From Dehalococcoidia bacterium (GTDB lineage Bacteria > Chloroflexota > Dehalococcoidia > Bin125), in NCBI GenBank assembly GCA_022828105.1, contig JAJEJC010000001.1, forward strand, positions 69,918-109,470: DNA of 39,553 bases. The letters are read 5' to 3'. The translations under genes and the position numbers were made by a program. This document shows positions 27,699-30,231 of the stretch, one piece after another (the first letter of the stretch is position 1; the number at the start of each line of letters is the position of its first letter). Below the pieces are notes generated by a model that did not search any database, had not been told where the DNA came from, and saw only the letters and a list, made by a program, of their open reading frames with translations.

Positions 27699-28082
27699 CT
27701 AGCGCGACTCCACAACGACTCTCCCGCCGGGTTCGACGTCAATGTGCAGCTCGTAACCCCGAAGCAGCGACATGCCCACCAAAGGCGTCGTGGCCGCAGC
27801 GTCCGCCAGGCCGTAGCGCATTTGCCCGTCCCAGAGCACGCCCATGTGATGCAGCGTCCGATGCCCAACCCGCAGCAGCCAAACGTCGACAGCCTCCGGC
27901 TGCTGCGCGCGCAAACTCTTGGACGCAGCCCGTAGGTCCTCGGCCAGCGCCCAGCAGCCGCTCTCCACGTCAATCGCGACGTACTCCCCCTCATGATCCC
28001 GCTCAACCTGCGCCCGCACCACACGCTCGTAAATGTCGTCGCCCAGACGGGCAATCTCTCCGGCAGGCCGGGACTTCGACAT
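27699..28082 (-). CDS. Hypothetical protein fused to the C-terminal end of a clan AA aspartic protease (probable relic fusion)
   Basis: This is a 127-residue protein. Residues 1-79 (IARLGDDIYERV, EGEYVAIDVESG, VWLLRVGHRTLHH) resemble the small hypothetical proteins often encoded next to single-domain clan AA (retropepsin-like) proteases. Residues 81-127 (VLWDGQMRYGLAD, TPLVGMSLLRGYELHIDVEPGG) look like the last third of such a protease. The catalytic D-T/S-G half is absent, so the protein should have no protease activity. An in-frame deletion that fused a two-gene module is the simplest reading. A strong GGAGGAG precedes the ATG at 28082. The whole interpretation is pattern-based. Confidence 0.6.
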   Translation of the reverse strand: MSKSRPAGEIARLGDDIYERVVRAQVERDHEGEYVAIDVESGCWALAEDLRAASKSLRAQQPEAVDVWLLRVGHRTLHHMGVLWDGQMRYGLADAAATTPLVGMSLLRGYELHIDVEPGGRVVVESR

Positions 28083-28182: not shown

Positions 28183-28286
28183 CTCCCCAACACCCAAGTC
28201 AACCCCACAACACACCACAACCCCACATCGAACACCCGTTCACATACCATCGATCCCCTGACACCACCAAGAGCAGGAGTTCTCCG

Positions 28287-28682
28287 TTGTCCCACGCCGC
28301 TAACCCACCTCTCCCCTTCACCAACGAAGCCATCATCAACCGCCTCCGACACCAGGCCACCAACGGCCCCGCCTACGTCCAACACAGCGCCACCAAGGCC
28401 CTCGCACACATCAAGGGCCTCTACGCCCAGGCCCACTACGAGGCCAGACTGGCCTACGACACTGCCCGCGTCGCTCTACGCGACTCTGTCGCGGATGCCG
28501 CCACCGACACGCAGCGGGCCGACGACGGCAAGATGTGCCTCGCCAAGCGCATGGAAGGCCTCAACAACGGCACCCTCCAGCCCACCCCCGAAGAACTCGC
28601 CCACTTCGAGCCGGACAACCCGGCTCAGGCCGACGATGGCGACGAAGACCACCCAGAGGAGCAGGAAGATGAACCTCCCTAA
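28287..28682 (+). CDS. Small helical protein with acidic tail upstream of the terminase (unknown function)
   Basis: This 131-residue protein starts at a TTG (28287) with GCAGGAG 7 nt upstream. Residues 12-95 look helical (INRLRHQATNGPAYVQHSATKALAHIKG and AHYEARLAYDTARVALRDSV). The last 25 or so residues are dominated by Asp, Glu and Pro. It ends 14 bp inside the terminase start, so the two are probably co-translated. Its size, helical content and position before a large terminase gene would suit a small terminase subunit, but I see no recognised small-terminase signature. I do not recognise the family. Confidence 0.55.
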   Translation: MSHAANPPLPFTNEAIINRLRHQATNGPAYVQHSATKALAHIKGLYAQAHYEARLAYDTARVALRDSVADAATDTQRADDGKMCLAKRMEGLNNGTLQPTPEELAHFEPDNPAQADDGDEDHPEEQEDEPP

Positions 28683-30231
28683 TGTCCGCACGCGCCTGTC
28701 GCCCGCGGCGCTCGCCGCCGCACACAGCGAACGGCGTTTTTTCCCGACCAAACGCCAGCGCGAGCTCTTTCAGCAGCTCCTCAGCGCCCCCTACTCCAAA
28801 ACTGACGCCGATCAGGACGGAGAACAGTCCCGCGTGTCCGATTCGCTCACCCTGTTGGGCTACGGCGGCGCCATGGGCGGCGGCAAGACCCGCGCCATTG
28901 CCGAACTTGCCATCGACGCCGCGCTCGCCTTCCCCGGCAACAACGTCCTCGTCGCACGTCACCATCTCTCCGACCTCTCCTCCACCACCATGAAGGAGTT
29001 CTTCCAGGTCTGCCCGCCTCATCTCATCCAGCGCCGCCGGCAGGCCCCCACCAGCCTCGTCCAGCTTCGCCTGCCCGGCTGGCCCTCGGGACGGTACTCG
29101 ACCGTCAACTTCCGCCACCTCTCCGACTGGCACGGCCTCGGCTCGCAGCAATACGGCGCCGTCCTCATCGACGAAGCCGGTCAGGTCGACGAAGACGCCG
29201 CCCTCATGCTGCTCACCCGCCTCCGACATCCCGCCCAGCCCCAGCGCTGGTTCGTCGCCGCCTCCAACCCCTGGCCCGGCTGGTTCCAGCGCTGGTTCGT
29301 CCGACGCGAACTGCCCGAAGACGCGCTCAACGCAGCCCGCGGACAGCTCGCCTTCGTCCCCGCCAGGATCGCCGACAACCCCTATCTGCCCGTCAACTAC
29401 GCCGAGATCAATCACGCCCTGATGCCCCCCTCCTGGCGTGAACGCTTCCTCGAAGGACGCTTTGACGCGCTCATGAACCGCGTCTACCCCGACTTCGACC
29501 CCGAGCGCCACTGCTGGCACGCGCCACTGCCCCGCTTTTCCCACCTGATCGGCGGCCTTGACTTCGGCGGCCAGGCCGACACCGCCCACCACACCGCCGC
29601 CATCCTCGCCGGCCTCACCCCCTCCGCTCCCCTCTCCCCCCGCCTCCGGCGGGGGGAGATGTCCCGTAGGGACAGAGGGGGGCACGCCCACGCAGACAGA
29701 GGGCGGCATTCCCTCGCCGACAGCGCGGACCACTCCCACGCCCCATCCCACCCCTACACCCTCATCCGCATCGCCGAGTTCGAAGACCGCGGTCCCGGCG
29801 TCATTCAACGCCTCGAACAGTGGCAGCGCCGCTGCCAGCAGCGATTCGGTAGCATCCGCTGGGCCGCCGACCGCTCCCAATCCGCCTGGATCGACCACCA
29901 GCGCCGACAGCAGATCGACGTCGTCCCCGCCTCCGGCGCGCCCGGCTCCGTCCTCTACGGCGTCAACCTCGTCTACCAGTACCTCGCCGCCGACCCGCCC
30001 CTATCCTTCTACACCCCTGAGCTCACCCAGTTCCCCCGGCGCATGAGCGAGTACGTCTGGCAAACCGGCGACGACGCCGATCCCCGGCCGCGAAAGCGCA
30101 ACGACGACCTGCTCGACGCCGACCGCTACATGCACGAACTCCTCCAACACGTGCCCCGCCCCGTCCGTCCCCGCTGGATCAACCTCGACTTCCCGCCGCT
30201 CGGCCGCCCCGCCCTCATCACCGACCGCTGA
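28669..30231 (+). CDS. Phage-type terminase large subunit (Terminase_6-like ATPase plus nuclease)
   Basis: This 520-residue protein has Walker A GGAMGGGKT (66-74), Walker B VLIDEA (165-170) and the coupling motif AASNPWPGW near 197-205, which together form a DNA-packaging ATPase. The nuclease half has an RNase H-like layout with Asp298 (GGLDFGG), Asp401 (AADRSQSAW) and a terminal acidic cluster NDDLLDADRYM (478-488). All catalytic positions look intact. Residues 321-338 are encoded exactly by a palindromic element inserted between the first two nuclease strands, and the following 20 or so residues are low complexity. AGGAGCAGGAAG precedes ATG 28669. No portal, capsid or tail gene is nearby; purB and purC flank the locus. 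A domesticated or orphan terminase is likely. Confidence 0.82.
   Translation: MNLPNVRTRLSPAALAAAHSERRFFPTKRQRELFQQLLSAPYSKTDADQDGEQSRVSDSLTLLGYGGAMGGGKTRAIAELAIDAALAFPGNNVLVARHHLSDLSSTTMKEFFQVCPPHLIQRRRQAPTSLVQLRLPGWPSGRYSTVNFRHLSDWHGLGSQQYGAVLIDEAGQVDEDAALMLLTRLRHPAQPQRWFVAASNPWPGWFQRWFVRRELPEDALNAARGQLAFVPARIADNPYLPVNYAEINHALMPPSWRERFLEGRFDALMNRVYPDFDPERHCWHAPLPRFSHLIGGLDFGGQADTAHHTAAILAGLTPSAPLSPRLRRGEMSRRDRGGHAHADRGRHSLADSADHSHAPSHPYTLIRIAEFEDRGPGVIQRLEQWQRRCQQRFGSIRWAADRSQSAWIDHQRRQQIDVVPASGAPGSVLYGVNLVYQYLAADPPLSFYTPELTQFPRRMSEYVWQTGDDADPRPRKRNDDLLDADRYMHELLQHVPRPVRPRWINLDFPPLGRPALITDR
29629..29682 (+). repeat. Double-hairpin palindromic element inside the terminase gene, copy 6
   Basis: This is a full copy: CCCCTCT, hairpin 1 CCCCCCGCC-TCC-GGCGGGGGG, hairpin 2 TGTCCC-GTA-GGGACA, then AGAGGGGGG. 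It is 54 nt long and in frame, encoding the 18 residues PLSPRLRRGEMSRRDRGG. The bases after it (to about 29735) look like a further degraded, GC-rich insertion. Confidence 0.9.

Follow-up and report, generated by a model that had tools for sequence, protein, structure and literature searches.

Terminases are familiar components of phages, satellites and transfer agents, which either have heads of their own or borrow them. What, then, is a terminase doing between two purine genes of a bacterial chromosome? The locus lies in a stretch of 39,553 nucleotides of a Dehalococcoidia bacterium (contig JAJEJC010000001.1), which we call the window. The genome of the window (G000) comprises 2.74 Mb in 10 contigs. 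We compare it with the other genomes of its genus (15 in all), which we take, going by sample names, to be sponge-associated bins.

The terminase between purB and purC

The interval from the end of purB (27503) to the start of purC (30299) contains a small gene and a terminase large subunit (TerL) gene, one minus-strand open reading frame (ORF) and palindromic repeats. A small gene with its TerL, where there is one, is called a cassette below. An earlier note on this DNA had described a lone TerL with a small acidic partner, a 131-residue gene (28287-28682) that overlaps the start of TerL (28669-30231) by 14 bp, and no portal, capsid, tail or integrase gene nearby. Direct reading of the interval confirms each of these points for the stretch between purB and purC, where no replication genes were seen either. 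The note had the two genes right but placed the start of the locus too late, since an SOS-type box precedes them at 28230-28241. The locus has the following parts.

28230..28241, no strand: predicted LexA/SOS-type operator GAAC-ACCC-GTTC, an exact match 57 bp upstream of the small gene
28245..28250, plus strand: probable -10 element TACCAT adjoining the operator, from sequence; ATACCAT is kept across family promoter alignments
28273..28279, plus strand: ribosome-binding site GCAGGAG, from sequence
28287..28682, plus strand: acidic helical protein of 131 aa that starts at TTG; only its position is small-terminase-like
28669..30231, plus strand: TerL, 520 aa, by Pfam, PHROG, alignment and fold
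28737..28742, plus strand: poly-T tract within the TerL 5' end; its place matches the poly-T after TerL-less small genes
28780..28797, plus strand: GC-rich stretch CTCAGCGCCCCCTACTCC, which corresponds to the GC-rich element conserved 3' of TerL-less genes; seen in stub copies
28840..28854, plus strand: counterpart of the end point of most TerL stubs (GACCGCCTCACCCTG), by stub comparison
28861..28890, plus strand: Walker A (YGGAMGGGKT); M69-T74 do not vary among 30 copies, and Y65-A68 are conserved in at least 90%
29158..29178, plus strand: Walker B (AVLIDEA region); D168 and E169 invariant
29560..29562, plus strand: nuclease acid I, D298, invariant
29617..29754, plus strand: in-frame insert in the nuclease domain with a genome-wide palindromic repeat (97 repeat matches in the genome)
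29869..29871, plus strand: nuclease acid II, D401, invariant
30103..30117, plus strand: nuclease motif III, DDLLD (D479, D480, D483), acids invariant
30139..30228, plus strand: TerL C-terminal tail, 30 aa, a genome-specific region in relatives by tail comparison; the two tails of G000 do not match

A generic sigma-70 promoter scan of the window found no promoter at the TACCAT position. The minus-strand ORF (27699-28079, 126 aa) lies between purB and the cassette and matches DUF5678 weakly (E 0.1); its C-terminal half presumably resembles the end of a clan AA aspartic protease. The palindromic repeat that lies in frame in the TerL nuclease domain, CCTCTCCCCCCGCCTCCGGCGGGGGGAGATG, is the one with 97 matches across G000. 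Other TerL copies carry different inserts at this site, with a long one in L036.

The window TerL matches Terminase_3 in Pfam (E=1.1e-7) and phrog_2 in PHROG (E=3.8e-24), and its PDB profile match is the solved D6E terminase (5oe8, E 3.9e-11). Its structural model, which is of middling quality (mean pLDDT 62), resembles the solved TerLs of P74-26, D6E, HK97, Sf6 and T4 (Z 12-17). Walker A and B, the RNase-H-like nuclease acids and the TerL fold are all present. Judged by its sequence, the phage origin of TerL is clear. The best TerL relatives among 50,697 phage records are less than 30% identical.

Is this terminase still in use? The earlier note held that Walker A, Walker B and all nuclease acidic sites are kept. 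They are, and they are invariant across 30 aligned TerL copies. The ratio dN/dS (Nei-Gojobori) ranges from 0.03 to 0.48 over 14 TerL pairs, which gives no sign of relaxed selection. For the small gene it ranges from 0.12 to 1.16 over 14 of 16 pairs, the other two having no defined ratio. TerL is thus under constraint, whereas the small gene evolves quickly. One internal stop occurs among the full-length TerL rows of a single-sequence search, and one more in a profile search. The layout in relatives and the dN/dS values support a conserved two-gene module under purifying selection, apparently in use.

Ordinary prophage remnants that chanced to keep their terminase genes would account for the clear phage origin and for the truncated TerL stubs found in several genomes. 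However, the catalytic motifs are intact in 30 of 30 aligned copies, dN/dS is low, there are SOS-type boxes and conserved 3' elements, and the loci read have no neighbouring phage genes. Chance survival is therefore extremely improbable. The prophage decay that the note had considered is likewise rejected: invariant motifs in 30 copies and a TerL dN/dS of 0.03-0.48 speak against it, and relatives have no prophage at purB-purC.

Intact TerL genes occur in 14 of the 15 genus genomes, with one to four copies each. A 30-row profile matched 15 of 393 class genomes at 1e-10, namely 14 of the 15 genus genomes plus G017, which belongs to the same family. A single-sequence search matched 16 of 100 relatives, G036 among them weakly (E 2.2e-5). 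The copies occupy several orthologous sites: purB-purC, an enoyl-CoA hydratase site, a CoA-transferase site ('site C') where most genomes have a TerL, and others. At the three loci whose ORFs were read (L023, L027, L051) the neighbours are ordinary host genes, and no phage gene lies beside TerL.

A family of cassettes with SOS-type boxes

What is the small partner? The 131-aa protein has no Pfam or PHROG family at E<=0.01. Its model is helical (mean pLDDT 86); in the search for the kinship with small terminases that had been considered, no small-terminase family and no PDB fold matched. Its position is that of a small terminase, directly upstream of TerL and overlapping it, and two viral relatives (L146, L147) have an overlapping small gene before TerL as in the window. 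A review states that small terminase genes are hard to annotate from sequence (PMC9611059). The sole small-terminase hint is a 13-column VRLTP motif that the partner at site C has in common with one viral small gene (hhalign E 0.0094, probability 4%). The small proteins have no match in phage records or viral contigs. One comparison (A2-A5) was circular and is not used.

The majority of small-gene cassettes have no TerL. A profile of 31 partners finds about 122 places in 14 of the 15 genomes: 28 in G014, 18 in G006, 13 in G013, 12 in G005, 11 in G002, 10 in G000, 7 each in G010 and G011, 6 in G001, 4 in G009, 3 in G004 and 1 each in G003, G007 and G008. A single genome thus has up to 28 cassettes. 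The proteins that were fetched and read are acidic and 85-141 aa long. Profile comparison joins 6 of 7 small-protein groups, which were set by our own regular expressions and leave 16 of 118 as 'other'; the exception is the VRLTP-bearing group of site C. Four TerL copies lack a small gene between box and TerL. Contigs begin or end inside or beside many cassettes (e.g. L230, L231, L246, L251, L260, L274), hence the true copy numbers are probably above those counted. The two-gene module of the earlier note is conserved, but its multi-copy nature, the TerL-less partner family, the SOS-type operator and the shared tails had been missed.

How might the cassettes be controlled? A LexA box is reportedly known from Dehalococcoides. 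In the genus, GAAC-N4-GTTC (at most one mismatch, within 100 bp upstream) precedes 92 of 116 cassettes, a count inflated by the relatedness of the genomes, as all cassette counts are, compared to 3.7% of 15,102 control windows. Cassettes with TerL have the box in 17 of 21 cases and those without in 75 of 95. Operator and 3' counts use 118 cassettes of the about 122 places (L257 was dropped for its broken frame), and contig-end cuts leave 116 upstream regions, 110 downstream regions and 112 complete proteins; the TerL-only copies and stubs L054, L062, L092 and L094 are outside the 118. The cassettes have this promoter box in common with lexA itself, where the same box type occurs within 350 bp upstream in 13 of 14 genomes inspected, the fifteenth lexA being at a contig end. 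From these sequences we infer that LexA controls the cassettes. GAAC-N4-GTTC is the box type given for B. subtilis in PMC4234289.

The cassettes are also conserved beyond their stop codons. A run of at least six T within 130 bp after the stop is found in 81 of 110 cassettes vs 0.18% of controls (9 of 21 with TerL, 72 of 89 without). One cassette group, sampled at 20 different sites, has a conserved non-coding 3' block with its edge at GCCGTGCCC; beyond this edge conservation falls to background. In TerL cassettes the counterpart of the block sits within the TerL 5' end. The majority of TerL stubs stop at one point shortly before the Walker A codons, and stub copies retain the 3' element. Because they keep it although the TerL frame is broken, the element may well have a function in cis. 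Our first reading of the poly-T as a terminator is not supported: for the copy in the window, folding is no stronger than in shuffled sequence (z 0.32), and a terminator scan found none.

SOS-type boxes and the many TerL-less small genes would also fit a cellular SOS function without capsids. TerL would then be an induced translocase or nuclease, and the small proteins adaptors that recruit repair enzymes. Of the 112 complete small proteins, 94 have an acidic-Pro-x C-terminal tip, and the ends DDDPL and DEDEPP resemble the SSB tip, given as DDDIPF in PMC5872125. However, the tips lack the I-P-F spacing of SSB, and the genome-specific TerL tails described below stay unexplained. We thus consider a cellular function rather unlikely. 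The full ends EEDDDPL and DEDEPP could each be a recruitment tail; the fetched loci contain no SSB gene for a tip comparison.

From genome to genome, one cassette type replaces another at shared sites, purB-purC among them. The earlier note saw the locus as an interruption of a continuous purine gene run. Comparison of 14 genomes with purC shows instead that the interval is an insertion hotspot: it spans 24 bp in G007, 96 bp in G004, and other relatives have different genes there. A full TerL lies upstream of purC in G000 and G013, and a small gene with a TerL stub in G001, G002, G006 and G011, likewise at contig ends in G005 and G014. In G003 and G012 contig ends cut the interval. A full prophage is found in none. 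The small genes at purB-purC fall into different groups between genomes.

Two other gene types were seen at these loci by reading translations. G009 (L093) and G010 (L091) have an unrelated large secreted-protein ORF in the purB-purC interval that looks peptidase-like. A nucleotidyltransferase-like and HEPN-like ORF pair adjoins the small gene in L089 (G001) and L090 (G006).

Exchange extends to other sites. Two or more cassettes share a site in 27 cases, and 12 of these sites carry more than one small-gene group; another 41 sites are single. Full and stub cassettes at different sites of one genome are 97% identical over 798 bp in G005 and 619 bp in G002. Judging by the swapped types and near-identical duplicates, cassettes therefore move or are exchanged. 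A DNA transposon was rejected, as the filled allele of G005 and the empty allele of G001 show no clean ends or target duplication, which is weak evidence from one site.

Such mobility would suit a minimal selfish satellite, in which small gene and TerL load themselves and their flanks into the heads of a helper phage. Entry would be by homologous recombination of the flanks, hence no integrase, and TerL-less cassettes would parasitise the parasite. Fixed sites with swapped types (12 of 27), the near-identical duplicates within genomes and the contig breaks at cassettes agree with this. However, TerL lineages persist at orthologous sites genus-wide, more like resident genes. Moreover, a filled allele, compared at a single site, has about 886 bp where the empty one has 84 bp, and neither clean ends nor a target duplication are visible. 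A selfish satellite is therefore unlikely.

TerL tails and the search for heads

The last 20-35 residues of TerL are alike between copies in one genome, even where the bodies differ. For pairs with less than 70% body identity, tail similarity is 0.373 within genomes (n=17) vs 0.141 between others (n=287), and 0 of 5,000 label shuffles reach this difference. Between two body classes, which we set from the alignment, it is 0.473 (n=13) vs 0.161 (n=163), with 0 of 20,000 permutations; L033/L034 and L051 are outside this two-class test and inside the <70% test. Tree structure is not modelled by these permutations, which only reassign labels, and the body-identity control for the two-class test is weak (544 of 20,000).

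The pattern has exceptions. The best other-class tail comes from the same genome for 7 of 11 copies, and not for the window copy, L031, L036 and L037. Tails without a within-genome match are found in G000, G009, one G002 copy and the G013/G014 copies with long tails. Several shared tails differ at many synonymous sites (e.g. L029/L045, L030/L039), which argues for selection on the protein, besides recent conversion (L027/L042).

The C-terminus of lambda TerL serves as a tether that binds the portal, and the N-terminal domain contains the TerS-binding part, according to PMC9026076. Since tails are alike within genomes and the lambda C-terminus binds the portal, the simplest reading would be one common docking partner per genome, a reading that fails for some genomes.

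Alternatively, such tails could target local phages. SOS-induced small proteins and TerL would then be decoys that poison phage terminases or occupy portals and so block phage DNA packaging. The small proteins evolve fast (dN/dS up to about 1), come in many types per genome and have SOS-type boxes, as such a device might. However, ATPase and nuclease sites that are intact in all copies are more than a decoy would require, and the loci read lie amid housekeeping genes. Four proteins tested had no match in PADLOC, although absence from that library says little. We regard an anti-phage device as quite unlikely.

If the tails dock on portals, where are the portals? The families PF04860 (portal) and PF05065 (capsid) occur in 1 of 15 genomes, G003, and portal family PF05133 in 0 of 15. 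The G003 matches lie on a 4-kb contig (C209; L100, L073, L074) with HK97-type portal and capsid genes. By its genes C209 is a true phage or prophage piece, and by the families searched the only one in the genus.

The nearest viral contigs have TerLs at 37-39% identity. In these relatives TerL is followed by a large portal-like gene, in our reading probably the portal, and 2 of 3 have an overlapping small gene upstream. The portal-like proteins match neither Pfam nor PHROG, and a profile of two of them found 0 matches in 20 family genomes. For a gene transfer agent, the search covered three Pfam families (two for portals, one for capsids) and one viral portal, with matches in G003 only. As the portals of the viral relatives match no Pfam or PHROG family, such searches could miss an unrecognised head cluster.

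A packaging module and known systems

To explain the persistence of these terminases, we tentatively favour an SOS-induced, capsid-less packaging module that docks on portals supplied in trans, a reading we think possible and hold at less than even confidence. A phage terminase operon, having lost its phage, would now serve the host lineage as a packaging module that DNA damage induces. LexA would repress the cassette in the normal state. After SOS induction the small protein would be made, plus TerL where present. The small protein would act as an adaptor in the manner of a small terminase and guide TerL to DNA at the cassette or close to it, and TerL, with its intact ATPase and nuclease motifs, would cut DNA. 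Its C-terminal tail would dock on portals encoded elsewhere, whether by a phage, infecting or resident, or by a transfer particle that has escaped recognition, and TerL would pump host DNA into them. Cassettes that lack TerL would either rely on it in trans or compete for it.

The packaging module is supported by 30 copies with motifs, by dN/dS, the fold, the viral gene order, the SOS-type boxes and the tails. It is weakened by the failure to find a cognate portal or capsid and by a small protein without small-terminase match. Unmatched tails, four TerL copies without small gene and mostly TerL-less small genes weaken it as well.

A further possibility concerns where packaging would start. Each cassette could consist of an SOS promoter, an adaptor gene and a 3' cis packaging start (poly-T and GC-rich block). 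After damage a shared TerL pool would start packaging at many chromosomal cassettes simultaneously, and neighbouring host genes would be moved into foreign or unrecognised heads via the genome-specific docking tail. Dispersed starts are distinctly improbable in our view. If true, the starts of gene transfer would be scattered over the chromosome and not placed in one phage genome.

Terminase motors persist genus-wide in several divergent copies, with no recognised head genes and a DNA-damage-type switch. If host DNA is indeed loaded into borrowed heads, then sponge symbionts exchange genes by a process whose trigger and starting points are built in. If cassettes instead block phages, they represent a new defence logic. 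Operator, 3' block and tail are specific sequences that can be checked in existing sponge particle metagenomes.

How does the module compare to known systems? With tailed-phage TerLs (Terminase_3; phrog_2; D6E, P74-26, Sf6, T4 gp17) it shares ATPase and RNase-H-like nuclease motifs, domain order, the overlapping upstream small gene and the fold. In contrast, no portal, capsid or tail gene follows here, and several resident copies per genome lie behind SOS-type boxes.

Phage-inducible chromosomal islands (PICIs) are similarly capsid-less, have a packaging-related small protein and are potentially linked to SOS or phage. The module here lacks integrase and replication genes at purB-purC, has its own TerL, is multi-copy and has no defined ends. 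Such an island was rejected: purB-purC holds only two genes and a minus-strand ORF, and host genes surround L023, L027 and L051.

Gene transfer agents are likewise phage-derived packaging genes kept by the host under selection. Here, however, no structural cluster was recognised, and genomes have several divergent terminases, not one. The small genes of the Gram-positive type LexA regulon (GAAC-N4-GTTC) share operator type and promoter position, whereas the members here comprise genes of packaging type along with small-gene cassettes, dispersed and up to 28 in number.

The literature searched (open-library papers only) held nothing on lone or multi-copy terminase modules in bacteria. By the tests above, the arrangement fits neither a prophage nor an island nor, at the one site compared, a transposon.
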